A DNA stretch of 64,000 nt, from NCBI RefSeq assembly GCF_032854445.1, contig NC_088298.1, positions 4,710,160 to 4,774,159 on the forward strand. The letters are read 5' to 3'. The number at the start of each line of letters is the position of its first letter. Position 1 is the stretch's first letter. Origin of the DNA: Liolophura sinensis. Its lineage: Eukaryota; Mollusca; Polyplacophora; Chitonida; Chitonidae. This document shows, in pieces, positions 4,701 through 53,407 of this stretch. The position numbers were made by a program, and so were the translations under genes. A model generated the notes under the pieces. That model made no database searches and had not been told where the DNA came from. It saw only the letters and a list, made by a program, of their open reading frames with translations.

Positions 4701-7412
4701 TCCTGGATTTTTGATGTGGAATAATTGTACAGAATCATTCACATACTACTCAACTAAATATGGATAATGACACAGACTCTTCTATGTCTGTTCCACCTCA
4801 CAATTCATTCTCCCACCTGCCATTCCATGATGTTTCCTCCATAACACCTACTTCATCATCAATTGCCAGGTCTACCGTCCCAACATATAATCTTGATATT
4901 ATTGACCAGATGTGCTTCAATCCAATTGAACTGAATGACTATGATACATCTAAAGCACATATTGATGACAACGAACAAGAAATTTCCTATTGGGGTAATT
5001 TAGACTCTCACCTGTCCAACTATTACAGCGTTAAAAGTTTAACTCAACACCTTATTACATTCACAATCAATTTTCAACCTTTCATTTTAAATGTCCGTAG
5101 CTTAGCTAAAAATTTTGACGAAATTTGATATCCATACTCTTAACCTTTGAGTCTTTGGATTTTCGGAAAGTTGGCTTAGCCCTTTAACAGAATGCTTATA
5201 TTCCAATTCCATGCCAGGCTACACTTTATAATCTGCCTCCCGAGATAAACAGAAGGGAGGAGGTGCTGCACTCTATGTCAACAGCTTTTTCCACTCTTGC
5301 AAACTACGCAATGAAGATGAAGATTGTGGATATTTGTGGAGATCGCTGCTGCGTCAGATGTCTTATGTTGCTGGAATTATTTATCACTCTCCAGGTAAAA
5401 ACGTGTGTCTTTTTAATGAAAAACTACACACAGTCCTTCATAATATACCCTCAAACAAAAAATGTATCATCTTAGGTGACTTCAACATAGACTTATTCAA
5501 CTGTGTTAGCCATTTGCCATCATCACATTTTTTGAACTAATGAAGTGCCATTACCCTTTCCCTTCCATTACAAAACCTATGTGAGTATGTTCTCGCTCTG
5601 CTACCTTTATAGATAACATCTCTACAAACTTGCAAGCTCAGCATAATTTCTCCGGTACATTTTTAACAAATATATCTCACTTATATTCAATATCTTCTTC
5701 ATTAATGCTTTTTCGAAAGAAAGATCAACTTACTCTCTTCAAAAAAAAGACTCCAGAACAAGTCAATCCGTTTAAAGAAAATGTTTAAAATATAGACTGG
5801 CATGCACTCTATCATCGGATAGTGTTAATGAGGCTTTATCCTGTTTTACTGGGAAATTATTCATTGCGTACGACACATGCTTTCCTGTTGTGACCATAGA
5901 CAGCCAATCGAAACATACTCACACACCTTGGGTCACACAAGGTATTTTTAAGTCTGCATTCGAGAAGAACAAACTTCATCACCAGTATCTGAAATCTACC
6001 GATATACCAACTCACATCAAATATAGGAAGTACAGGAATAAACTCAACAACTTGATCCGTTTTTCAAGAAAGGATTACTTTGAAAAAAAAACTTTATGAT
6101 CAAAATCACAAAATCAAAGGAACTTGGAAAGTATTGAATGATCTAATGGGATGAGGTAAATGCACGAACATGCCTAAATGTTTTAATATTGATGGGTTAT
6201 CTGTTTCAGATAAACGTGTCATTTCCAATAGATTTAATGACTTTTTTCTACTATTGCTTCCAGTCTTGATGTTAAGATACCCCAAAGCTCTAAACATTTT
6301 TCAGATTTTCTAGGTGAGCCTGTAGAAGAAAACTTTCAATTTTCTTCTATCTCGCCTAGTCTTGTTGAAACCACTGTAAAGTCTAAAGTCACCAGCTCCA
6401 GGCTCAGATGGCATGAGCATGTCTGATCTCAAACTTGTTGCAAAAAGATATTTCAGCTCTGCTTGCACATATATTTAATTTGTCCCTTATGTTGGGATGT
6501 ATGCCGTCCTCGTTGAAATCTGAAAAAATTACTTCCATCTTTAAATGTGGTGACGCCAATGCCATCACAAACTACCATCCTATCTCAGTACTACCTAGCC
6601 TGCGCAAAATAATGGGAAAAAAAAAACACTGCTCATTTTGTATTACTGTCTGATATTCCCTTATCTTTCCGATGCAAATGTTTTAGGGGGCAACACATAC
6701 GGGTCATCTCCATCCCTTAGTAATTCTTCAGAAACGGACCATCCGCCTTATCGCTTTATCTCAAAAGCTTCATAATGCGGCTCCAATACATAAGAACCTC
6801 AAAATCCTCCCACTTACACGGATACTCATCCTTACTACACGCACATAAATTCAGTCACCAAACACTCTCTCTTCCTCACAAATTTAGTCAGCTGTTCAAA
6901 AGACAATCTGACAGTCACAATTATCCAATCAGATCCTATTCTTTCTATCCCCATGTACCTTTTCTAACTTCAAATCTATCCACACATTTTATCAGATCAT
7001 CAGCCCCAAGGGAGTGGAATAGACTTCCTCAAAACCCTGAAGTAATGAATTTCACGTCTTTATTCCAATCCAGGTTAAAAAAATTTTTAATTAAAAATAT
7101 TTGATCCACATAATATAATCTACGAGACAGAAGGTGCAACACAAAATATTCTTCACACTATTGTACTTAAGTTAGATGTTTACAGTGTTCCATTTCTATG
7201 TGAGTTCTTTTCTATGTAACTTTGCTTTTGTTAATACAATTATTCACTAATTATCGCTCCTCACCAAGCATGTGTCATTATTCTTTGATAATAACAGAAC
7301 AAGTCCCTCAGACTTTACTCCCGCCATTTATGAGAAATCTCATTATACATATATTTACCTATGGTGAATGAAAATTCAATTCAATTTAATTCAATTCAAT
7401 ATGACTTCAACT
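4700..7412 (+). mobile_element. Degenerate CR1/L2-type non-LTR retrotransposon (LINE), broken
   Basis: Pieces of one LINE protein appear in order but in shifting frames. At 5074-5126 is the start of the endonuclease domain ('NVRSLAKNFDEI'). At about 5460-5510 is the endonuclease motif 'GDFNIDLF'. At 5890-6099 is the linker ('YRKYRNKLNNLIR'). At 6435-6640 are early reverse-transcriptase blocks ('LSLMLGCMPSSLK', 'NYHPISVLPS'). At 6775-7104 is the C-terminal tail ('REWNRLPQNPE'). The catalytic centre of the reverse transcriptase, expected between about 6640 and 6700, is deleted. The 3' end near 7365-7412 is an attcaattcaattt repeat, as known for CR1/L2-like elements. Many frameshifts and stops show it is dead. 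Clade assignment is from memory of the family and would need alignment. Confidence 0.85.
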
Positions 7413-17175: not shown

Positions 17176-17740
17176 TAAGTATGAGGCTGACCCATGCTAA
17201 TTTAGCAGGACATTAAAACTTGGGTCAGTTTTATTATATTTTACACCTGACTCTAACTGATTGGTTTAAAATTAAACCTATATTTATCATTGAATGTAAT
17301 CGACACTGCAAGGATCAAGTATAATCCCTAGTCACATGATCTGAGATAATCCTGTTTACAGATTAAGAGGATTAACTCAGACGGCCATACTATATCACAA
17401 GCATCTCAAACATTTAATATTCGTGATTTTTACCTTTTATCACAATAATCACCTACCTGATCGCCAATGGCCTTCACCTGAAGTCAGTTGGAAATCCCTT
17501 GTACAGTTTCTGCTATTGACAGAATTCACCCTGAGAGAGTGTAAACACAAGCACCATATGTGTATATGTGGACACAGGGGTATAAATGTATACAACACCC
17601 TTGTCCCTCTGTTCAGCCTTATAACTTGCCCTGGCAAACCAGGAAGTATACTTACATGTAATATACATAAAACTTTGGGTGTCTGTAAGTCCTGTTGTCA
17701 ACTTGACATGATAACTTCTGTCTCTCCATGTAGGTATAAG

Positions 17741-20700
17741 GGTAGGTGGGCAACGTTCTGTCACAGACATGGGTACTAGGGTAGGTGGCTACGTTCTGTC
17801 ACAGACATGGGCATTGGGGTAGGTGGGCAACGTTCTGTCACAGACACGGGTACCAGGATAGGTGGGCAACATTCTGTCACAGACATGGGTACTAGGGTAG
17901 GTGGCTACGTTCTGTCACAGACACGGGCATTGGGGTAGGTGGGCAACGTTCTGTCACAGACACGGGTACTTGAGTAGGTGGCTACGTTCTGTCACAGACA
18001 CGGGCATTGGGGTAGGTGGGCAACATTCTGTCACAGACATGGGTACTTGAGTAGGTGGCTACGTTCTGTCACAGACACGGGCATTGGGGTAGGTGGGCAA
18101 CGTTCTGTCACAGACACGGGTACCAGGATAGGTGGGCAACATTCTGTCACAGACATGGGTACTAGGGTAGGTGGCTACGTTCTGTCACAGACACGGGCAT
18201 TGGGGTAGGTGGGCAACGTTCTGTCACAGACACGGGCATTGGGGCAGGTGGGTCAATGTTCTGTCACAGACACGGCCATTGGGGTAGGTGGCCAATGGTG
18301 TGTCACAGACACGGGCATTGGGGCAGGTGGGTCAATGTTCTGTCACAGACACAAGTACTGAGGTAGGTGGGTCAATGTTCTGTCACAAACACAGGTACTT
18401 GGTTGGGTGGGTCAATGTTCTGTCACAGCCACAGGTACTGGGGTAGGTGGGTCAATGTCCTGTCACAGCCACAAGTATTGGGGTAGGTGGGTCAATGTCC
18501 TGTCACAGCCACAGGTAGGTGGGTCAATGTTCTGTCACAGACACAAGCATTGGGGCAGGTGGGTCAATGGTCTGTCAAAGACACAGGTTCTGGGGTAGGT
18601 GGGTCAATGTCGTGTCACAGACACAGGTACTAAGGTAGGTGGGTCAATGTCCTGTCACAGACATAGGTACTGGGGTAGGTGGGTCAATGTTCTGTCACAG
18701 ACACAGGTAGGTGGGTCAATGTTCTGTCACGGACACAGGTACTGAGGTAGGTGGGTGAATGGTCTGTCACAGACACAAGCATTGGGACAGGTGGCATTGG
18801 GGTAGGTGGGTCAATGTTCTGTCACAGACACAGGTACTGGGGCAGGTGGGTCAATGTTCTGTCACAAACACGGGCATTGGGGTAAGTGGGTCAATGTTCT
18901 GTCACAGACACAGGTACTGGGGTAGGTGGGTCAATGTTCTGTCACAGCCACAAGTATTGGGGTAGGTGGGTCAATGTCCTGTCACAGCCACAGGTAGGTG
19001 GGTCAATGTTCTGTCACAGACACAAGCATTGGGGCAGGTGGGTCAATGGTCTGTCAAAGACACAGGTACTGGGGTAGGTGGGTCAATGTTCTGTCACAGA
19101 CACAGGTACTGGGGCAGGTGGGTCAATGTTCTGTCACAAACACGGGCATTGGGGTAAGTGGGTCAATGTTCTGTCACAGACACAGGTACTGGGGTAGGTG
19201 GGTCAATGTTCTGTCACAGACACAGGTACTGGGCTAGGTGGGTCAATGTTCTGTCACAGACACAGGTAATGGGGTAGGTGGGTCAATGTTCTGTCACAGA
19301 CACAGATACTGGGGTAGGTGGGCAACATTCTGTGACAGACACAGGTACTGGGGCAGGTGGGTCAATGTTCTGTCACAGACACAGGTAATGGGGTAGGTGG
19401 GTCAATGTTCTGTCACAGACACAGGTACTGGGGTAGGTGGGCAACATTCTGTGACAGACACAGATACTGGGGAAGGTGAGTCAAAGGTCTGTGACAGACA
19501 CAGGTACTGGGGTAGGTGGGTCAATGTTCTGTCACAGACACGGGTACAGGGGTAGGTGGGTCAATGTTCTGTCACAGACACAGGTACTGGTGCAGGTGGG
19601 TCAATGTTCTGTCACAGACACAGATACTGGGGCAGGTGGGTCAATGTTCTGTCACAGACATGGGCATTGGGGTAGGTGGGTCAATGTTCTGTCACAGGCA
19701 CAGGCACTGGGGCAGGAGGGTGAATGGTCTGTCACAGACACAAGCATTGGGGCAGGTGGGTCAATGGTTTGTCAAAGACACAGGTACTGGGGTAGGTGGG
19801 TCAATGTTCTGTCACAGACACAGGTAGAGGGGTAGGTGGGTCAATGGTCTGTCACAGACACAAGCATTGGGGCAGGTGGGTCAATGGTCTGTCAAAGACA
19901 CAAGCATTGGGGCAGGTGGGTCAATGGTCTGTCAAAGACACAGGAACAGGGGTAGGTGGGTCAATGGTCTGTCACAGACACAAGCATTGGGGCAGGTGGG
20001 TCAATGGTCTGTCAAAGACACAGGTACTGGGGTAGGCGGGTCAATGGTCTGCCACAGACACAAGCATTGGGGCAGGTGGGTCAATGGTCTGTCAAAGGCA
20101 CGGATACTTGGGTAGGCGGGTCAATGTTCTGTCACAGACACAGGTATTGGGGTAGGTGGGTCAATGTTCTGTCACAGACACAAGCATTGGGGCAGGTGGG
20201 TCAATGGTCTGTCACAGACACAAGCATTGGGACAGGTGGGTCAATGGCCTGTCAAAGACACAGGTACTGGGGTAGGTGGGCCAATGTTCTGTCACAGACA
20301 CAAACATTGGGGCAGGTGGGTCAATGGTCTGTCACAGACACAAGCATAGGGGCAGGTGGGTCAATGGTCTGTCACAGACACAAGCATAGGGGCAGGTGGG
20401 TCAATGGTCTGTCAAAGACACAGGTAATGGGGTAGGTGGGTCAATGTTCAATCACAGACACAAGCATTGGGGCAGGTGGGTCAATGGTCTGTCACAGACA
20501 CAGGTACTTGGGTGGGTGGGTGGGTCAATGTTCTGTCACAGCCACAGGTACTGGCGTAGGTGGGTCAATGTCCTGTCACAGACACAGGTATTGGGGTAGA
20601 TGGGTCAATGTTCTGTCACAGACACAAGCATTGGGGCAGGTGGGTCAATGGTCTGTCACAGACACAAGCATTGGGGCAGGTGGGTCAATGGCCTGTCAAA

Positions 20701-20924
20701 GACACAGTTACTGGGGTAGGTGGGTCAATGGTCTGTCACAGACACAAACATTGGGGCAGGTGGGTCAATGGTCTGTCACAGACACAAGCATAGGGGCAGG
20801 TGGGTCAATGGTCTGTCAAAAACACAGGTACTGGGGTAGGTGGGTCAATGTTCAATCACAGACACAAGCATCGGGGCAGGTGGGTCAATGGTCTGTCACA
20901 GACACAGGTATTGGGGTAGGTGGT
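17741..20924. repeat. 40-bp minisatellite, about 80 units (3.2 kb)
   Basis: Unit ggggtaggtgggtcaatgtt plus ctgtcacagacacaggtact. The left 500 bp is a sub-family (gggcaacgttctg alternating with ggctacgttctg). The middle is mostly 'acaggtactggggtagg'. The right third alternates 'acaagcattggggcagg' with 'tctgtcaaagacacagg'. A block near 18472 recurs near 18951, about 12 units later. Open frames in this stretch (up to 163 codons) are by-products. Confidence 0.97.
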
Positions 20925-27054: not shown

Positions 27055-27573
27055 TTATGGGAGAAGTAAACCACTAATCATCAGCAGGTACTTGGGAAGA
27101 GTAAACCACTGACCATCGGCAGGTACTTGGGAGAAGTAAACCACTAACCATCAGTAGGTACTTGGGAAGAGTAAACCACTGACCATCGGCAGGTACTTGG
27201 GAGAAGTAAACCACTAATCATCAGCAGGTACTTGGGAAGAGTAAACCACTAACCATCGGCAGGTACTTGGGAGAAGTAAACCACTAATCATCAGCAGGTA
27301 CTTGGGAAGAGTAAACCACTGACCATCGGCAGGTACCTGGGAGTAAACCACTGACCATCGGCAGGTACCTGGGAGAAGTAAACCACTGACCATCAGCAGG
27401 TACTTGGGAGAAGTAAACCACTGACCATCGACAGGTACTTGGGAGAAGTAAACCACTGACCATTGGCTGGTACGGGAGGAGTAAACCACTAACCATCAGC
27501 AGGTACTTGGGAGAAGTAAACCACTGACCATCGGCAGGTACTTGGGAGGAGTAAACCGCTGACCATCGGCAGG
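27055..27573. repeat. 35-bp minisatellite with SINE-like flank, about 15 units
   Basis: Unit gtacttgggagaagtaaacc plus actgaccatcggcag. The sequence leading in ('gatgcttcccgccatgctca', 'agaagttttctctc') and the unit itself (ggaggaaacc...ccatccgcaggt in the SINE) look like a diverged SINE family 1 or 3 tail, so the array probably grew from part of a SINE. Long minus-strand frames (91-104 codons) are by-products. Confidence 0.9.
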
Positions 27574-27956
27574 CACTTGACAAAGCTCTAGACTTCAAGC
27601 TGCAGCTTGAAGCACAATCTCATTGGTCAAGTTGCATCAAGTTGGTGCCTTAACCATCTGAGTCAACAAGACTTCACGCGAATAAATGTGAGGATAAAAA
27701 AACATGTTTGCATCGCAAACTGATATGTTTACCCTAATTCTTCTCATTTTAAAGACAGATTTTAGCAGTTCTGATAGGAAAGAATTACATTTGTTTCCCA
27801 GATTTTGGGAAAAGTAAAGATATGAATATACTGTTCATTAGATGGATGAATCATGTGAAAAAAAGCAAACTAAATATTCCCGCTATAATTACATTCATAT
27901 TGGCTACCAAGAACAGACCAGGTGACCCAAAAATTAGAAGATTAGAGTATCGTTAC

Positions 27957-33648: not shown

Positions 33649-34085
33649 TTATTTCTCATGAACATAAGCAAAAATTGCCTGATGTTCGAATCCCAATTTG
33701 TTTTTCACATACTTCATGGAAACATCTTCAAAACCCACATTTTCTAAACACCACATGTAGTGCATGGGATCAGTAATAGCATTCTTTGTCAGTAATCCTC
33801 TTTTCTTTGCTTGTTTTAGTCGTTTCAGACTCAGTGTCGTCACCATCATGGAGTTTGGCTTCATCACGCGATAAAGCTCTGCGGCTCCGTCGATCATGTC
33901 ACGCCAGAAATAATAACAGTTTACGTGGTACACACGATCAAACTTGTCGTGGTTGAACGGAAGTTTTTCAACTCTCGATAGCAACAGCTCTAGTTTCTTG
34001 TTGTGTATTTCCATGTATAACAATTCAGCCGTTTCAGTAAACATTCTTTCAGAGATGTCCACTCCGTATATTTTCCCCGGTCCGT
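33649..34085 (-). CDS. Methyltransferase exon 3 (terminal)
   Basis: Begins after ttttattttcag (AG at 34087-34086) and continues codon 72 (GAC) from exon 2. Encodes GPGKIYGVDIS to the stop TAA at 33649-33651: the C-terminal two thirds of the Rossmann-fold domain. Confidence 0.92.
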
Positions 34086-37000
34086 CTGAAAATAAAAAAA
34101 CAAAACAAAAGAAACAGAATGCTGTGTAAATTATTGCCTCAGTTTGACTTGGGGCTGTATAACCTTGTATTATCTGACAGGCATATATCACCACTAAGTG
34201 CCTTGTATTTTCTGACAAGTATACTTTGCCACTAAATAATTTGTATTTTCTGACAGACAACCTTCACCACTAAGTACCTTGTATTTTCTGTTGGACAAAC
34301 TTCACCCCTAAGTACCTTGTATTTTCTGACAGGCATACTTCACCACTAAGTACCTTGTATTTTCTGACAAGCATACTTCACCACTAAGTACCTTGTATTT
34401 TCTGACCAGCATACTTCACCACTACATGCCTTGCATTTTCTGTTGGACAAACTTCACCACTAAGTGCCTTGTATTTTCTGACAAGCATACTTCACCACTA
34501 AGAACCTTGTACTCTCTGACCGGCATACTTCACCACTAAGTACCTTGTATTTTCTGACCAGCATACTTCACCACTAAGTGCCTTGTATATTCCTAAAGGC
34601 ATACTTCACCACTAAGTACCTTGTATTTTCTGACCGGCATACTTCATCACTAAGTACCTTGTATTTTCTGACAAGCATACTTCACCACTAAGAACCTTGT
34701 ACTCTCTGACCGGCATACTTCACCACTAAGTACCTTGTATTTTCTGACCAGCATACTTCACCACTAAGTGCCTTGTATATTCCTAAAGGCATACTTCACC
34801 ACTAAGTACCTTGTATTTTCTGACAGGCATACTTCACCACTAAGTACCTTGTATTTTCTGACAAGCATACTTCATCACTAAGTACCTTGTATTTTCTGAC
34901 AGGCATACTTCACCACTAAGTACCTTGTATTTTCTGACAGGCATACTTCACCACTAAGAACCTTGTATTTTCTGACCAGCATACTTCACCACTAAGGACC
35001 TCATATTTTCTGACAGGCATACTTCACCACTAAGTACCTTGTATTTTCTGACCAGCATACTTCACCACTAAGTAACTTGTATTTTCTGACAGGCATACTT
35101 CACCACTAAGTACCTTGTATTTTCTGACAGGCATACTTCACCACTAAATAATTTGTATTTTCTGACAGGCATACTTCACCACTAAATACCTTGTATTTTC
35201 TGACCAGCATACTTCACCACTAAGTACCTTGTATTTTCTGACAGGCATACTTCACCACTAAGCACCTTGTATTTTCTGACAGGCATACTTCACCACTAAA
35301 TAATTTGTATTATCTGACAGGTATACTTAGTGGTGAAGTATGCTGGTCAGCATACTTCACCACTAAGTGCCTTATTTTTTCTGACAGGCATACTTCATCA
35401 CTAAATACCTTGAATTTTCTGACAGGTAAACTTCACCACTCAGTACCTTGTACTTTCTGTAAGTCATACTTCACTAACCACCTTGTATTTTGTAAAAGGC
35501 ATACTTCACCATTAAATAATTTGTATTTTACAACATGCATATTTCCCCATTTCTGACAGGCATACTTCACCACTAAGTACCTTGTATTTTCCTAAAGGCA
35601 TACTTCACCACTAAATAATTTGTATTTTCTGACAGGCATACTTCACCACTAAGTAACTTGTATTTTCTGACCAGCATACTTCACCACTAAGTACCTTGTA
35701 TTTTCTGACAGGAATATTTCCCCACTAAGTACCTTGTATTTTCTGACGGGCATACTTCACCACTAAATAATTTGTATTTTCTGACAGGCATACTTCACCA
35801 CTAAGTACCTTGTATTTTCTGACCAGCATACTTCACCACTAAATAATTTGTATTTTCTGACAGGCATACTTCACCACTAAGTACCTTGTATTTTCTGACC
35901 AGCATACTTCACCACTAAGTACCTTGTATTTTCTGACCAGCATACTTCAACACTAAGTGCCTTGTATTGTCTGACAGGCATACTTCACCACTAAAAAATT
36001 TGTGTTTTCTGACAGGCATACTTCACCACTAAGTAACTTGTATTTTCTGACCAGAATACTTCACCACTAAGTGCCTTATTTTTTCTGACAGGCATACTTC
36101 AATACTGAATATCTTGTACTTTCTGACATGCACGATTTGTCACCAAGAACCATGGATTTTCTGACAAGCATACTTCACCATTACGGATCTTGAATTTTCT
36201 GACAGGCAAATTTCACCACTGAGTACCTTGTATTTTCTGACAGGCATACTTCACCACTAAATACTTCTGGCATGCATGCTTTACTATTAAGTAATTTGTG
36301 TTTCCTGACAAGCATACTTCACCACTAAGTCCTTTGTATTTTCTGACAGGTAAACTTCACCACTCAGTACCTTGTACTTTCTGTAAGTCATACTTCACTA
36401 ACCACCTTGTATTTTGTAAAAGGCATACTTCACCATTAAATAATTTGTATTTTACAACATGCATATTTCCCCATTAAGTACGTTGTACTTTCTGACAGGC
36501 TTACTTCACCACTAAGTACCTTGTATTTTCCTAAAGGTATACTTCACCACTAAGTACCTTGTATTTTCTGACAGGCATACTTCACCACTAATTGCCTTGT
36601 ATTTTCTAAAAGGCAAATTTCTCCAGTAAGTACCTTGTATTTTCCTAAAGGCATACTTCACCACTAAGTGCTTTGTACTTTCTGACAGGCATACTTCACC
36701 TCTAATTGCCTTGTATTTTCTAACAGGCAAATTTTTCCAGTAAGTACCTTGTATTTTCCTAAAGGCATACTTCACCACTAAGTGCTTTGTATTTTCTGAC
36801 AAGCATACTTCACCACTAAGTCCTTTGTATTTTCTGACAGGTAAACTTCACCACTCAGTACCTTGTACTTTCTGTAAGTCATACTTCACTAACCACCTTG
36901 TATTTTGTAAAAGGCATACTTCACCATTAAATAATTTGTATTTTACAACATGCATATTTCCCCATTAAGTACGTTGTACTTTCTGACAGGCATACTTCAC

Positions 37001-38584
37001 CACTAAGTACCTTGTATTTTCTGACAGGCATACTTCACCACTAATTGCCTTGTATTTTCTAAAAGGCAAATTTCTCCAGTAAGTACCTTGTATTTTCCTA
37101 AAGGCATACTTCACCACTAAGTGCTTTGTATTTTCTGACAGGCATACTTCACCTCTAATTGCCTTGTATTTTCTAAAAGGCAAATTTCTCCAGTAAGTAC
37201 CTTGTATTTTCCTAAAGGCATACTTCACCACTAAGTGCTTTGTATTTTCTGACAGGCATACTTCACCACTAAGTACCTTGTATTTCTAAAAGGCAAATTT
37301 CTCCAGTAAGTACCTTGTATTTTCCTAAAGGCATACTTCACCATTAAATAATTTGTATTTTACAACATGCATATTTCCCCACTAAGTACGCTGTACTTTC
37401 TGACAGGCATTCTTCACCACTAAGTACCTTGTATTTTCCTAAAGGTATACTTCACCACTAAGTACCTTGTATTTTCTGACAGGCATACTTCACCACTAAT
37501 TGCCTTGTATTTTCTAAAAGGCAAATTTCTCCAGTAAGTACCTTGTATTTTCCTAAAGGCATACTTCACCACTAAGTGCTTTGTATTTTCTGACAGGCAT
37601 ACTTCACCTCTAATTGCCTTGTATTTTCTAAAAGGCAAATTCTCCAGTAAGTACCTTGTATTTTCCTAAAGGCATACTTCACCACTAAGTGCTTTGTATT
37701 TTCTGACAGGCATACATGTACTTCACCGGTAAGTGCCTTGTAACTTTTAAGTACCTTGTATTTTCTGGCAGGCACACTTAAGTCCTTCTCCGGTTCCAAA
37801 GCCAACCTCCAGTACATTATGATGAGGCTGGATGTTACACAAGTCCACAGCACTCTGCGACAGCGGTTTGTTCACCTTCTTGAATAGATACTAAAACAAA
37901 CATACACAAAGCACGTAAATTTTCATTCTGCTGCGTTGATTGGAATGCCTGGCTGATAAAGGCACCACACTTCGTGGGTACCTGGCAATCTCCATGAACC
38001 ACAGCCAAATGAGTAGGAATGAGGACACTCCCTGGCTAAGGGTCTATGTTCACAGATTTCAACACTTTATACTAGTATGTCCGATCCTGCAAAAACCCTC
38101 CTCCAATTCCCAAAATACACTATTGTAAATATCTGCTTATATATTTCATTTACATGGCTAAATAAGTCTTGTACCGTTTCATAGGTAAAAATGCCATTTT
38201 CTCTAATTTGATATAAGTAACATAAAAATATGAGTCCAAATCTTCAAACCTTTTCGCAGGATTCAAATATTCCCTAAACTAGGCCCTGGACCTAGTTTCA
38301 CAAAAATGTTGTACATGTACGATAATCGCGCATATAGGACAATGAGACGATAACAGCGACGTACGAAATATCGTACGACAAATATACGATTACAAAATGT
38401 CACACGCCACTTGTGATACTGGCCTCTGACCTACATTTGATTTTAATAAAACATAAATTTACACAGGACACAGGAGAGTTAAAGGTAATCTATTAAATCA
38501 TATTACCTTGACATACCAGCCGATGGGTCCCCCTTTAGGGTGGGCTAACTGAGCAGAGATACTGTCTGCAAGCCTCTGCCACAT
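33649..38584 (-). CDS. Class I SAM-dependent methyltransferase, 216 aa, three exons
   Basis: Exons in coding order on the minus strand: 38584-38507, 37890-37755 and 34085-33649. Junction phases fit exactly (phase 0, then phase 1) and all splice sites are GT-AG. The joined protein starts MWQRLADSIS and ends FAYVHEK. Motif I, the SAM-binding glycine loop, is VLEVGFGTGEGL at residues 52-63. The acidic post-I motif is IYGVDIS (77-83), and the motif IV region is FDRVYHVNCYYFW (120-132). Length and order fit the Methyltransf_11-type family, often named 'uncharacterized methyltransferase YdaC-like'. It should transfer a methyl group from S-adenosylmethionine; the substrate is unknown. There is no signal peptide or membrane segment, so it is probably cytosolic. 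The gene is divergent from the Shisa-like gene. Intron 1 is 616 bp; intron 2 (34086-37754) is almost wholly a 38-bp minisatellite derived from the exon 2 donor region. Confidence 0.92.
34163..37753 (-). repeat. 38-bp minisatellite made from the exon 2 splice-donor junction, about 90 units
   Basis: On the minus strand a unit reads aagtatgcctgtcagaaaat, acaag, gtacttagtggtg. Its first 25 nt match the last 25 nt of methyltransferase exon 2 (37779-37755; two differences) and the next bases match the intron start GTACTTA. The array therefore repeats an exon end plus 5' splice site through 98% of intron 2. Variants form longer blocks: 'ctttctgtaagtcatacttc' and its neighbours recur near 35455, 36380 and 36870. 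One unit is inverted at 35325-35368. Confidence 0.97.
37755..37890 (-). CDS. Methyltransferase exon 2
   Basis: 136 bp, starting after gtttgttttag with YLFKKVNKPLSQ and ending KCACQKIQ plus one base at ACAAG|GTACTT. Carries SAM-binding motif I. Its last 25 nt are the founder of the intron minisatellite. Confidence 0.92.
38507..38584 (-). CDS. Methyltransferase exon 1 (start codon)
   Basis: 26 codons, MWQRLADSISAQLAHPKGGP and on to YVK, ending AAG|GTAATA in phase 0. The ATG at 38584 is the first codon of the block that joins in frame to exon 2. The 5' UTR is not defined. Confidence 0.85.
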
Positions 38585-47900: not shown

Positions 47901-50900
47901 TGGGAACAGCTGAATAATTCTGTTCGGTGAAAGGAAAGCTGGCTAGTTTTGAACACTTCTCCAGACAAATTTAGATGCCATGTTTTCAACTTGTTCTGTA
48001 TATACGCTTGACCTTCAGATGCCATCGAGAAGGTCATTGACAGCGAGCGTAAGGAACAAGAAAAGGCTGTGGTGAGGAATTCCGTATGTAAGTATATTAA
48101 TATATTGATGGCATAATGATTTTTCTTATATTTTCTGTTTTTATTTTATACCATATAATCGGAAACTTTTTTTTATACACGATCAGCAATATACAGTTTT
48201 CGTTGTCAGGCAGAGAACTAGCATACCTTTAAGCCAAGTTTAAAGGATCAGCTTTCGAATATGCGATACTTCTTTGGCCTGTACGGCCACGGTGGCTTTA
48301 AGTGACGCACTCTGTTGCCTAGTGAACATTCACTATCATTCTCTGTTCGCGCAACTGTTTTCTCTTCGTAAATTTTGCGTTTCAGATACTTGCACCGGTG
48401 TTGGTGACCTATGCTAGGTATTTTGTTTATTATTTATGTACTTTGGGTTTATGTGTGTAATTAAAAATAAGCCAGGTGTAAGAGACAAACACTCTGTCGA
48501 GATCTAGGTTCGAACTTGCCATCTTATTGATCAGGGGCTGCGAAGAAGCCAACGTTTTAGCGAATCAGCCAGTGTAGGCAACGTGCAATATTTTAATAAA
48601 TATATATCGGCTTGATATAAAAAGTAAATATAAATAGAGTTGAGCGCTGAACACGAACTTAGTGTAAGAAGAGAAGATATTAGACAGTTGAGGTTCTTGC
48701 TGACTCAGACCTGTAATGAAAATGTTGCATGACTTCCACGTAACACTCTATCTATGAGACTGCCATCTACAGAGAGGGGAACTGTTTTAACACACGTTCT
48801 CCTGTCCGAAGATGACGTATTCAGGAGTCAAGGATCGAACCCATATCAAGCAATCAGTTGGAAATGGTACTAGTTTTGTACCGTGGAAATCTCACAACGT
48901 TTACGTGCCACAATGCTCAAGACTTGATATCAGAGGGACAATGTACAAAGACGGTGCTCAAAATATTTAATAATAATAACAAATTTTTTTTAAAAAATGA
49001 ACATTCCCGTGGTCTGTTTTACGAAGCTGCAGCGACATGTACCCTATACCCTATTCAACGTCACTAATATCTGTCCAAATTTTATAAGAATTAGGGTAAC
49101 ATATCGTGCGACAATTATATAACGGGCGTCTTGCCTATAGTCGACAGCACGATCAACTGCTTGTCAAAACGAGATTTACCGCATACGTCTTCGATAGTAC
49201 CATAAATTTAAGCGCATTAAAAGTTGGGCGTAGTATCACTTGTAAGAGGTGATACCGGTTTAGTGTTATCTTAAAATCTGTGTATACTAAACTAAATAAA
49301 TAAATCAATTAATCTTGCACGCTTTAATTATAACTCGCCACATGTAACATGGTGATGTTTTAAAGTTCACCTGTCTCGAATGCGTTTTGATGATGCCAAA
49401 TAATTGAAAATATTGCTTTTATGTACCCTAAACAGTTGATGCAGACGCCATGTCCATATTCACCGGAAGTGTACCGTCACTTCCGTCCATCTGTTCCTCT
49501 ACCGTCTCCCTTCGCCAATGGGACATACTGACAGAAGATCAGACTGACCAGTCGGAGGTGTCCACAACGGCTGGACAAACTGAGGCGGACCAATTAAAAA
49601 TCCTCAATACACTGAAACCAGAAATAGCCACCCAATCAGAAGTATCGAAGACTTCCTTCAAGTACACTGTTGACCAATCAGATGTCTCCATGGTTCCATC
49701 AGTGAAAGAGATTAACAATCCTTTAGCAGTGACGCAATCAAGAACATGTAAGTATATACTAGTTACATTTTCAGTCAAGACGGTTTCCTCCCGCCATAAT
49801 GCTGACCACCGTCGTATAAGTGAAATATTCTTGAGTAGGGCGTAAAACACCAATCAGATAAATACATATGTAGTCAAAAAGAACGCCTGCATGGTGTAAA
49901 GTGTTCATATGGCCTTAACTATATAGGGGAATATTTTCTTTGATTTCGTTTTTACTACATGAACATTATAATGATAGACGTACAGCATAGAGCGTAAGAC
50001 CAGAGCAGCGACGACGGTGCGATAGACGTACAGCCTAGAGCAGAAGACCAGAGCAGCGAAGACAGTGTAACAGAAGTACAGCATAGAGAGTAATACCAGA
50101 GCAGCGACGACAGTGTGATAGGCATGCAGCATAGAGAGTAAGACCAGAACAGCGACGACGGTGCGATAGACGTACAGCCTAGAGCAGAAGACCAGAGCAG
50201 CGAAGGCAGTGTAACAGAAGTACAGCATAGAGAGTAATACCAGAGCAGCGACGACAGTGTGATAGGCATGCAGCATAGAGAGTAAGACCAGAACAGCGAC
50301 GACGGTGCGATAGACGTACAGCCTAGAGCGGAAGACCAGAGCAGCGAAGACAGTGTAACAGAAGTACAGCATAGAGAGTAATACCAGAGCAGCGACGACA
50401 GTGTGATAGACGTAGAGCATAGAGCGTAAGACCAGAATATCGACGACGGTGCGATAGACGTACAGCATAGAGCGTAAGACCAGAGCAGCGACGACGGTGC
50501 GATAGACGTACAGCCTAGAGCAGAAGACCAGAGCAGCGAAGACAGTGTAACAGAAGTACAGCATAGAGCGTAATACCAGAGCAGCGACGATAGTGTGATA
50601 GGCATGCAGCATAGAGCGTAAGACCAGAGCAGCGATGACAGTGTGATAGACGTAGAGCATAGAGAGTAAGACCAGAGCAGCGACGACACTGTGATAGACG
50701 TAGAGCATAGAGAGTAAGACCAGAGCAGCGACGACGGCGCGATAGACGTACAGCATAGAGCGTAAGACCAGAGCAGCGATGACAGTGTGATAGACGTAGA
50801 GCATAGAGAGTAAGACCAGAATATCGACGACGGTGCGATAGACGTACAGCATAGAGCGTAAGACCAGAGCATCGACGACGGTGCGATAGACGTACAGCCT

Positions 50901-53407
50901 AGAGCGTAAGACCAGAGCAGCGACGATAGTGTGATAGACGTACAGCCTAGAGCGGAAGACCAGAGCAGCGACGACGGCGCGATAGACGTACAGCCTAGAG
51001 CGGAAGACCAGAGCAGCGAAGACAGTGTAACAGAAGTACAGCATAGAGCGGAAGACCAGAGCAGCGACGACGGTGCGATAGACGTACAGCCTAGAGCGGA
51101 AGACCAGAGCAGCGACGACGGTGCGATAGACGTACAGCCTAGAGCAGAAGACCAGAGCAGCGAAGACAGTGTAACAGAAGTACAGCATAGAGAGTAATAC
51201 CAGAGCAGCGACGATAGTGTGATAGGCATGCAGCATAGAGCGTAAGACCAGAGCAGCGATGACAGTGTGATAGACGTAGAGCATAGAGAGTAAGACCAGG
51301 GCAGCGACGACAGTATAATAGACTTACAGCATAGAGCGGAAGACCAGAGCAGCGACGACAGTATGATAGACATACAGCATAGAGATTAAAACCAGAGCAG
51401 GGACGACGGTTATGAATGATGGCAAATGGTCACACGTAACCGGTGAAATACGGCCTTTTGTCAATTTACCTCAGTCAGAGTTTTATTCTAACTGTTCTTG
51501 TAAATGCATAAATAGTAGAAATTTACACGCCCCCAGCACAATGTGCAGAATAATTAAGCAGAATAAGGTAAAAAAGGTGTGCAGTGATGTTAATTGCCAC
51601 TTATTAGACGTCACTTGTCTAGAATTACTAAAAATGCGGTGTTGTCATTACATTTAACATGCAATCACATTAAAACAATGCAAAGGGACATGTGCTCGGG
51701 GATGCTTAGTCCACCAGCAGGGTCAAGGCCTCGGGGATGCTTAGTCCACCAGCAGGGACAAGGCCTCGGGGATGCTTAGTCCACCAGCAGGGACAAGGCC
51801 TCGGGGATGCTTAGTCCACCAGCAGGGACAAGGCCTCGGGGATGCTTAGTCCACCGCCAGGAACAAGGCCTCGGAGATACTTAGTCCACCAGCAGGGATA
51901 AGGCCTCGGGGATGCTTAGTCCACCAGCAGGGATAAGGCCTCGGGGATGCTTAGTCCACCAGCAGGAACAAGGCCTCGGGGATGCTTAGTCCACCAGCAG
52001 AATTCTGGTGTTATGAACTGTCGCATTCAAAGCGTGACTGAGATGCCTATGTTTGCATTTGACGTGGAAACCGAGATTGAAATTTTAATTGGACGTCATG
52101 CGTAGAATAAACACTGTCTTTCCTGCATCAATGGACACCAATGACCGTTTCTCTCTTTAATACATATTACCAGCTTTATTTAATACGTATATACATTATT
52201 GTTTTACATATTCCTTTGGGAACTATGCTAAGAGTTTTAAGGTTGTTGCTTTTTTGGTAAATGGGTCTTGCGATTATCAACTTGGAACTTTCCTTTTATG
52301 TTTACGAGTTGTATACAAAAATCGAACTTGACTCTTAGATTACTTCAAACTTGTTCTCGCGTCCAGCCGGAACGGCTTTTGTGAAGACTAGGGTGCTGTT
52401 GACGTGTAAACGATGTCACTACTCACGTCGATTCATTCATGCTTCCCTGAATGAGGCTGATCAGATATGGAGGAGATCCTTTTCAGATGTAGTCCACGTT
52501 AAAAAATCATGTGACACAAGCACATGCGCATTCAACCCTTACGATGTTCATCTGTCTTAAACGCGTCCGAAAAAGAAAAAAAAAACTCTCTGTCATCAGA
52601 ACCCGAGTGGTCTAGTGTTTTAATCATCCGCATACGGAACCGTCATGTTGTTTGATGGAAGTGTAAGTAGAGAGCTTTTCAAAATAAACAAATAAATCAC
52701 TTTATGAAATGTATACATCGCGAACAGTTGAGCGCAGAAAACCCATGGACGACAGTGTCACTTGACAGAGACTAGAATGAAGAACGTCTTACTTACACTG
52801 CTTTTCTTTGTATGTAAATTGAACATCTCTCAATTCATTTTAATCAATGAAAAACCAGTCAAAGCACGTGACCGGGGGAAACATGACCTCAAAAGGTGCG
52901 TGGAGATCAACATGTAAATAGCACCCTAGTCTTCACAAATCCCTTCCCGAAAACTGGTTCTCTCTGCTGCGTCAAGTTATCAACTTTCCCACCCACAGCT
53001 CAGGCCCGAATTTCTTTTTTGTTGACTAACATGTCAAATATTTAAAGTCGCGCCGTGTATTAAACTAGGCCTCACCAATGTTTTGTTGGATTCAGCTGAA
53101 ACTTGTTGAACACACGAATCAATATAATAAAATATATGTCCTTCCCAACATGAATTTTTATATTTTTTCAGTTTCGCCAATTTCTCAAGACTCTGCATCT
53201 CTAGGAAGCAATCATTTTCGGCCATGTTCGTCTTCAGTGCAGCCATTGGAAATCTTGAATTTGATTGGTCAGGAAGGTGCTGTTGAATGCCGGGGATTGT
53301 CAAGGGTGACGATTCACCTTCCGGAGGCGTGGCCTGACCATGGTGAAGGTCAACAGGAGGGATCACGTTTGGCTCAGGCTTCCAACTGGACAGAGGGCTG
53401 GTTTTAG
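40986..53407 (+). CDS. Shisa/CYYR1-like single-pass membrane protein, 412 aa, eight exons
   Basis: Exons: 40986-41052, 41600-41723, 44288-44439, 45946-46090, 46948-47081, 48019-48087, 49436-49747, 53172-53407. All junctions are GT-AG, phases match at every join (1, 2, 1, 2, 1, 1, 1) and the total is 1239 nt ending in TAG. Protein: signal peptide (1 to about 23, MVSAWIFVAATSAVCLCL); a Tyr/Arg-rich ectodomain (about 24-114, with YYYSITSRQYYYY); a six-cysteine module C119-x16-C136-x11-CC(148,149)-x7-CC(157,158) with CPLPFEPKEYAYCCGD; a membrane segment about 167-188; and a cytoplasmic tail of about 220 residues rich in Ser, Thr, Gln. The cysteine pattern next to one membrane helix is that of the Shisa/CYYR1/WBP1/VOPP1 superfamily. 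Shisa proteins act in ER or plasma membrane as partners of receptors; the partner here is unknown. No PPxY motif was seen in the tail. The Tyr-rich spacer is unusual for the family. Confidence 0.85.
41600..41723 (+). CDS. Shisa-like exon 2: Arg/Tyr-rich ectodomain
   Basis: Begins after gcatccttgacag, ends CGAACA|GTAAGT. Encodes LTGSPRMARDGRSPYSAMS, then a run of Tyr residues. Confidence 0.8.
41803..41921. repeat. CA/CG-interrupted dinucleotide microsatellite
   Basis: (CA)n with scattered acgc units, in intron 2 of the Shisa-like gene. It can form Z-DNA by its alternating purine-pyrimidine order. Confidence 0.97.
42337..43547. repeat. 36-bp minisatellite, about 33 units, with a 391-bp internal duplication
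   Basis: Unit cacttaacacacatacacac plus ctacacttcatcatcc, in intron 2 of the Shisa-like gene. Rare variants (catccactttacac at 42801 and 43192; cttaacacatattcacac at about 42946 and 43337) recur 391 bp apart, showing a second-level duplication of about 11 units. Because 36 is a multiple of 3, long frames stay open on both strands. Confidence 0.96.
43621..43858. mobile_element. Palindromic MITE (family P), copy 1
   Basis: Ends are inverted repeats (tacactccaaaaattaatct against tacactcaaaaactgatctg reversed) and the arms extend inward (gatgctaaaatgtattctgt against acagaata...atacactgtagcatc). Flanked by TA, as in Tc1/mariner-type MITEs. Lies in intron 2 of the Shisa-like gene. Confidence 0.8.
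44288..44439 (+). CDS. Shisa-like exon 3: Tyr-rich ectodomain
   Basis: Starts after tatccactccag in phase 2, ends CGAG|GTAGGT in phase 1. Encodes YSALQRSAIGTARYSRV, then YISPYYKQYFSF. Omitting it would break the frame between exons 2 and 4, which supports it as a real exon. Confidence 0.82.
44440..45637. other. Intron 3 of the Shisa-like gene, left part
   Basis: No coding signal. Contains a G homopolymer of about 14 (44764-44778) beside A/T-rich low-complexity DNA, a likely source of sequencing or length errors. Confidence 0.6.
45648..45924 (+). mobile_element. SINE family 1, full length, with 10-bp target duplication, at a splice acceptor
   Basis: tRNA-like head ctccgtggctcagttggtca (A box) and B-box-like 'gagttcaagtcca', complete body, tail 'gcgtaaaacaccaatc' and (aata)n. 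Flanked by identical 10-bp direct repeats tttatttttc at 45638-45647 and 45925-45934. The right repeat sits 11 bp before the first base of exon 4 of the Shisa-like gene. Confidence 0.9.
45946..46090 (+). CDS. Shisa-like exon 4: six-cysteine domain
   Basis: Starts after tttctttcatgtaag and ends AGACAG|GTAAGT. Encodes all six cysteines of the module, CRNFEANENG, CPLPFEPKEYAYCCGD and YCCRFQD. The acceptor is weak and lies 11 bp from a SINE insertion. Confidence 0.88.
46184..46426. mobile_element. Palindromic MITE (family P), copy 2
   Basis: Same family as 43621: 'gctgttaatttcaacagaaa', 'gatgctagaatgtattctg' at left and the mirrored 'cagaatatattctagcatca', 'ctcagacaacagactttcag' at right. In intron 4 of the Shisa-like gene. 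Confidence 0.75.
46785..46865 (-). mobile_element. tRNA-like SINE head (possible fragment)
   Basis: On the minus strand 'cgcaagttcaaatccaac' fits a tRNA B box and is preceded by 'cccgcagcccctactcgc'. A similar block is at 48478-48563 ('tcgcagcccctgatc', 'gttcgaacc'). Only these short matches support it. Confidence 0.35.
46948..47081 (+). CDS. Shisa-like exon 5: transmembrane helix
   Basis: After a T-rich tract and ccttag, encodes NVIGAAFLSIFLVCPIGFLV, then a basic stop-transfer region (KEARFQRSIRKRWR). Ends GAGAG|GTGTGT. Confidence 0.88.
47630..47900. repeat. 65-bp tandem repeat, about 4 copies
   Basis: Unit includes 'cgagccctaccatgctataa' and 'cgtcactggaatgtcacatt'. In intron 5 of the Shisa-like gene. 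Confidence 0.92.
48019..48087 (+). CDS. Shisa-like exon 6: charged juxtamembrane segment
   Basis: 69 bp between cttgaccttcag and GTAT|GTAAGT, encoding DAIEKVIDSERKEQEKAVVR. Short, strongly charged and probably helical. Phase 1 at both ends. Confidence 0.82.
48478..48563 (-). mobile_element. tRNA-like SINE head (possible)
   Basis: On the minus strand 'ctggctgattcgctaaaacg' resembles an A-box region and 'gcaagttcgaacctag' contains a perfect B-box core. The rest of the element is not clear. In intron 6. Confidence 0.4.
49436..49747 (+). CDS. Shisa-like exon 7: cytoplasmic tail
   Basis: 104 codons between ccctaaacag and AACAT|GTAAGT. Encodes a Ser/Thr/Gln/Asp-rich tail with a loose repeated motif: DQTDQSEVS, TQSEVSKTS, DQSDVSMVPS, spaced about 25-30 residues, suggesting old internal duplication. 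Confidence 0.85.
49783..49865 (+). mobile_element. SINE family 1, 5'-truncated
   Basis: Only the last 80 bp: 'ggtttcctcccgccataatg', 'gtcgtataagtgaaatattc', 'gcgtaaaacaccaatcagat'. Begins 36 bp after the exon 7 donor. Confidence 0.88.
49973..51408. repeat. 48-bp minisatellite, about 30 units, open in several frames
   Basis: Unit agcgacgacggtgcgataga, cgtacagcctagagcagaag, accagagc, in intron 7 of the Shisa-like gene. Because 48 = 16 codons, each frame repeats every 16 residues. Two minus-strand frames stay open for 459 and 472 codons; the plus frame reads AIDVQPRAEDQSSDDG but meets stops (agtaatac variant). Not taken as genes, as they lie in an intron and lack start context, splice sites or family similarity. 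Confidence 0.96.
51694..52000. repeat. 35-bp minisatellite, about 9 units
   Basis: Unit ggggatgcttagtccaccag plus cagggacaaggcctc, with very few changes. In intron 7 of the Shisa-like gene. Confidence 0.95.
52378..52939. mobile_element. DNA-transposon-like element with 30-bp terminal inverted repeats
   Basis: Left end tttgtgaagactagggtgct plus gttgacgtgt (52378-52407) matches the reverse complement of 52910-52939 at 27 of 30 positions. The 500-bp interior has no coding frame of note. Non-autonomous, in intron 7 of the Shisa-like gene. Confidence 0.7.
53172..53407 (+). CDS. Shisa-like exon 8: C-terminus
   Basis: Follows tttttatattttttcag and joins exon 7 in phase 1. Encodes FSPISQDSASLGSN through NWTEGWF and TAG at 53405-53407. 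No poly(A) signal was seen before the MITE that begins at 53522. Confidence 0.82.

Follow-up and report, generated by a model that had tools for sequence, protein, structure and literature searches.

The Methyltransferase Locus

In this study, we examined a window of chiton DNA, the whole analysed stretch of 64,000 nt, in which a SAM-dependent methyltransferase gene of three exons lies on the minus strand (Pfam Methyltransf_25, E 4.5e-13 in a domain search). The second intron of this gene is occupied by a tandem array whose repeat unit resembles the end of exon 2 together with the first bases of the intron. The features of the locus, in window coordinates and with a slash for the splice junction, are the following.

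38507..38584, minus strand: methyltransferase exon 1, coding portion from the ATG at 38584; 26 codons; placed by sequence reading and a protein match to the assembly.
37755..37890, minus strand: methyltransferase exon 2; 136 nt, 3′ end ...AAAATACAAG; placed by sequence reading and splice scores, the domain continuing into exon 3.
37755..37779, minus strand: exonic repeat copy in exon 2; 25 nt, probable founder, 23/25 against the array consensus.
34086..37754, minus strand: intron 2; 3,669 nt, its donor AAG/GTACTT weak (score -1.2) and its acceptor TTTTTTTATTTTCAG/ACGG strong (score 9.9).
34163..37754, minus strand: 38-bp minisatellite ("mirage") in intron 2; of 96 aligned units, 34 carry the exact donor and 55 a GT at that position.
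33649..34085, minus strand: methyltransferase exon 3; coding through the TAA stop; placed by domain match and structure alignments.

When joined, exons 1-3 give a methyltransferase protein without a stop. The joint between exons 2 and 3 is spanned by the domain match and by three printed alignments to solved structures, and because a single methyltransferase domain crosses this junction the continuity of the two exons is supported. When the assembly was searched with the protein, the gene's own three exons came up together with a single weak match (E 0.1), and there was no useful paralog of the methyltransferase among them.

An Array Matching an Exon-Intron Junction

A sequence-only reading of the window had described a 38-bp array filling 98% of intron 2, and both the proportion and the coordinates hold: the tandem units run from 37754 to 34163 and take up 3,592 of the 3,669 nt (97.9%). 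In a wraparound alignment the exonic copy is followed by 96 units in the intron, a few being incomplete, and the low-gap units share a mean pairwise identity of 83%. Block duplication is visible within the array, with units 2-8 resembling units 14-20, and these in turn units 26-32, at 37 or more of 38 positions and a lag of 12 units. At 35325-35368, also inside the array, two perfectly complementary 21-base arms stand two bases apart; they amount to one inverted piece of a unit, perhaps a fold-back replication scar.

The repeat unit spans the exon-intron boundary, with 25 exonic and 13 intronic bases. The end of exon 2 (37779-37755) followed by GTACTTA agrees with the array consensus in 30 of 32 bases (23/25 exonic, 7/7 intronic), which bears out the two differences counted earlier from the letters. 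The same reading had made its case depend on a similarity beyond chance, and such a similarity is found, the best other 32-mer in the window outside 34101-37800 reaching 21/32 on the plus strand and 22/32 on the minus strand when all 38 registers are tried. With up to two mismatches allowed, one 25-mer of the array occurs at 42 places in the 609-Mb assembly, all of them within intron 2. On account of this confinement of the 25-mer, a dispersed satellite as the origin of the array was rejected. Alignment of the units with the exon end had been proposed as a means of rooting the array; no compared unit comes closer to the exon copy than 30/32 (one assembly, single haplotype), as would be expected of a boundary copy left out of homogenization, and unit identity to the exon does not fall but rises slightly with distance (Spearman 0.24, P 0.02). 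Thus, the array keeps no clear record of its first step.

Splice Signals in Intron 2

Splice sites were scored with two matrices built from this genome, one on 44 Cpn60-family donors and one on 45 acceptors. At -1.2, the donor of exon 2 falls below all 44 Cpn60-family donors and is outscored by 166 of the 375 GTs in the intron. Two other motifs, GTG/GTGAAG (2.6) and GAA/GTATGC (1.2), are better donors than ACAAG/GTACTT and are present in about 60 copies each. The number of decoys had been put at about 90, with ACAAG/GTACTT in each unit, but this proved too generous: the exact motif is kept in just 34 of the 96 intronic units, and positions +1/+2 read GT in 55 units, GC in 20, TT in 15 and something else or a gap in the remaining 6. 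The neighboring signals are weak as well, the exon 1 donor at 38506 scoring 1.8 (4.5th percentile of the 44 donors) and the exon 2 acceptor 1.95 (6.7th percentile of the 45 acceptors). Given these three weak sites, sole use of the exon 2 donor is not assured.

On the acceptor side, the exon 3 site scores 9.9, and the next best of 350 intron AGs (real acceptor included) reaches 1.5, under the 5th percentile (1.6) of the 45 genome acceptors; the suggestion that a CAG in the unit could serve as an acceptor finds no backing in these values. In-frame read-through from exon 2 gives ...KIQGT*, so that the TAA expected within three codons is indeed there, and it lies ahead of every intronic decoy. Because the stop comes first, the length of the unit has no bearing on frame, and the earlier argument that decoy use would shift the frame, 38 not being a multiple of three, is moot.

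Origin of the Array

Structures of this kind are known from amphioxus. In the amphioxus reports, mirages are minisatellite-like tandem repeats across exon-intron boundaries, found in Adh3, in the globins BflGb6 and BflGb9 and in TnC, with a similar case in PGBD5; they occur on the 5′ or the 3′ side, many of their units carry splice signals, and the edge of the cluster escapes homogenization (PMC3087553, PMC3902484). The unit sizes given there, 10-72 and 150-160 bp, include that of the 38-bp chiton unit, which likewise spans the boundary and keeps splice signals in many, though not all, of its copies. The chiton array differs in its host, a mollusc, and in unit number: it has 96 units, whereas the BflGb6 haplotypes have 6 and 3 and PGBD5 carries a triplication. 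The array is not unique in this genome, nor is its kind novel: amphioxus mirages share the structure. No title among the matches listed in a literature search names a mollusc mirage or splice-site minisatellite (most subscription papers being outside its scope), and as far as those titles reach this is the first mirage in the phylum. A further parallel is the Rogers model, cited in PMC3087553, in which introns are gained when AG/GT proto-splice sites are duplicated. The duplicated chiton segment carries exon-intron signals too; however, an existing intron is filled and no new intron is seen.

We consider that the array is most likely a mirage derived from a 38-bp segment across the exon 2/intron 2 junction, amplified by neutral tandem duplication and tolerated via the intact exon-proximal site. 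The founding segment, with its 25 exonic and 13 intronic bases, would have straddled the junction; slippage or unequal exchange would have copied it into the intron, and the copies would then have amplified in blocks. In a duplication across a donor, the exon-side edge would keep the coding end and the donor, and the extra copies would all be intronic, leaving the array invisible to the protein provided that the first donor is used. With the extra copies confined in this way, arrays could grow at such a place much as they do elsewhere in introns. The mRNA would be expected to join the first donor to the strong acceptor at 34085. The growth steps, their neutrality and the choice of donor are what we infer from this arrangement. 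The direction from exon to array is strongly argued for on coding grounds: the exonic 25 nt (37779-37755) encode residues within the methyltransferase domain, which makes the exon the likely source of the repeat. The earlier proposal that the array grew from the splice junction by repeated duplication has good support, as the exonic stretch lies in the domain, the 25-mer is found only here and other genes of this genome show the same anatomy. Read from the sequence, it is plausible that the array is tolerated since the exon's own donor comes first, and alternative tails produced by reading into the array are possible.

Recurrence in the Same Genome

In 19 regularly placed 10-kb stretches plus the window (a twentieth stretch was all N), 66 minisatellite arrays cover 48,361 of 254,000 readable bases; the stretches were taken at 1-4 Mb of five contigs and may not be typical. 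The sampled loci (L006-L025) by themselves hold 30,683 minisatellite bases in 190,000 readable ones. In the published repeat table, simple repeats and similar elements account for 0.08% and unclassified repeats for 14.04%.

The Cpn60/TCP-1 family served as a sample chosen before looking. Of its 50 matches 47 were fetched, leaving out three rows at two loci and covering genes L033-L034 and L035-L036 in part, and these gave 44 donors and 45 acceptors. The junction positions are predictions from genomic sequence, made with homology or codon score plus a splice matrix and in part by hand; a junction counted as a mirage where its window recurred two or more further times within 1.5 kb. This applied to 3/44 donors and 0/45 acceptors; the figure for interior intron positions was 1.7% (copy-weighted).

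One exon of L026, a gene which we take to be CCT5, is followed by six further aligned copies of its terminal part; the unit is about 109 bp long, some 93 nt of it coding as judged by eye, and in three of the six copies the donor is as strong as the real one. In another Cpn60/TCP-1 gene (L029), one donor has five further copies, four with GT and one as strong as the real site, and a second donor has 11 further copies at a spacing of 66 to 105 bp, 10 of which retain the real donor 9-mer. Two other cases were not counted: the L027 donor, with a single copy in one test window (10+10), and the start of L029, where the array unit includes the first exon's acceptor but no more than about 5 exonic bases and failed the 20-nt test. 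On the L029 gene strand (6784-7260), translation continued from the exon through the 66-bp mirage units meets no stop for 144 codons and passes six decoys. If splicing used these first six decoys, the TCP-1 family protein would gain 22-residue repeats in frame.

Genes at the random loci provided 27 donors and 23 acceptors, raised to 29 and 25 by two exons of L009, a nucleolin-like gene, whose ends had escaped automatic placement and which were added by hand. Its donor case comprises 3 copies at 16/20 and 6 at 15/20, its acceptor case 3 copies, and all 7 aligned copies of the donor outscore the real site. This single gene has both acceptor-side and donor-side junction arrays (831-1282 and 5923-6307). 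The L009 exons 1271-1329, 5790-5930 and 7226-7359 are absent from the displayed codon-score list and were included because the gene and its arrays had already been seen, so that the combined count is biased upward by the exons included by hand. A further L009 donor (5522) was flagged and then dropped, being without a copy at 30 nt. Against a background of 1.93%, the mean of 1.7% (Cpn60) and 2.2% (random-locus), the two sets together yield 4/73 donors (P 0.053) and 5/143 junctions of either kind (P 0.14); with donor 5522 kept, the counts become 5/73 (P 0.014) and 6/143 (P 0.060), all P values being uncorrected.

The same junction-array anatomy is thus seen independently in Cpn60/TCP-1 and nucleolin-like genes. 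The excess of mirages over chance seeding is weak (P 0.04-0.19, depending on the subset). Mirages recur in this genome, but no special pull of splice sites emerges from the counts, and where arrays are so abundant, seeding by chance may be enough to explain them. A far-reaching version, which we regard as rather doubtful, would make mirages a standing genome-wide class: several percent of 5′ splice sites, those of housekeeping genes included, would have seeded arrays of decoy donors equal or nearly equal to the real one, minisatellites would be born preferentially at donors, and splicing would need an exon-proximal-donor rule that holds over a great number of natural tandem donors.

Alternative Explanations

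Rather doubtful as well is an active part for donor sites in the birth of arrays, with R-loops or nicks where the intron starts as one conceivable route; mirages would then be commoner at donors than elsewhere in introns. The Cpn60-family donors point this way (3/44 vs 1.7% of intron positions, copy-weighted, P 0.038 uncorrected), as do the combined donor counts given above, with or without the dropped site, and the presence of AGGTG in 11 of the 66 minisatellite units (4.1 expected) and of AGGTAC in 4 (1.2 expected). Yet the signal fades when Cpn60 acceptors, none of which has copies, are counted with the donors (3/89, P 0.19) and when all junctions are pooled (P 0.14, or 0.06 when site 5522 is kept); a single gene supplies two of the three Cpn60 donor cases, the L009 exons adjoining arrays were added after the arrays had been seen, and GGTAAG is not enriched in the units (0 vs 0.8 expected). 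A general enrichment of AGGT in minisatellite units was considered and rejected (18 vs 16.4 expected, rank 47 of 136 4-mers).

Use of the decoys to make alternative mRNAs, encoding a truncated methyltransferase here and extended proteins elsewhere, appears unlikely. The 34 exact donor copies, and a real donor beaten by 166 of 375 intron GTs, would give it room, as would the second L029 donor, with its 9-mer in 10 of 11 copies and its open read-through of 144 codons. According to the title of Turri et al. 1995, a minisatellite of an interferon-induced transcript, probably human 6-16, provides multiple splice donor sites. Nonetheless, every decoy product of the methyltransferase gene would meet the TAA after KIQGT and be truncated, and in the amphioxus mirages regular splicing is reported as undisturbed and cryptic use is called possible (PMC3087553, PMC3902484). 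With a weak donor here and better-scoring copies in the nucleolin-like case, the choice of donor is not readable from sequence.

Less likely still is a purge of the decoy donors by selection against mis-splicing. Among 54 distinct units, columns -1, +1 and +2 form the most variable contiguous triple, and by parsimony +3 and +4 are among the three most changed columns, both having changed 8 times where the mean is 3.2. However, the parsimony counts for -1, +1 and +2 are just 4, 4 and 5, the exonic column 9 changed 8 times, and GT is kept in 27/29 copies across four other donor arrays. Finally, that the array came first, from elsewhere, and had its edge recruited as the end of exon 2 is very improbable: similarity alone leaves the direction unfixed and the exon-adjacent units are no closer to the exon than others, but the exonic stretch sits within a methyltransferase domain that aligns across it, the repeat 25-mer is found nowhere else in the assembly, and the L026 unit includes an exon end within the chaperonin domain match, which is hard to explain as array-derived.

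A junction-derived mirage with neutral growth, our preferred reading, extends mirages from amphioxus to a mollusc, where they recur in conserved genes. Tandem arrays of equal donors offer a natural test of how the spliceosome chooses among equal sites, and since RNA-seq from five tissues (digestive gland, foot, gill, gonad and heart; PMC11068029) was made for the assembly the question of donor choice should be answerable now.

Other Minisatellites of the Window

The sequence CAGGTACT is also present in two other arrays of the window, at 17740-20923 and 27058-27579. On the minus strand at 49905-51385, a 48-bp array, the unit of which is a multiple of three, is traversed by open frames 472 and 476 codons long.
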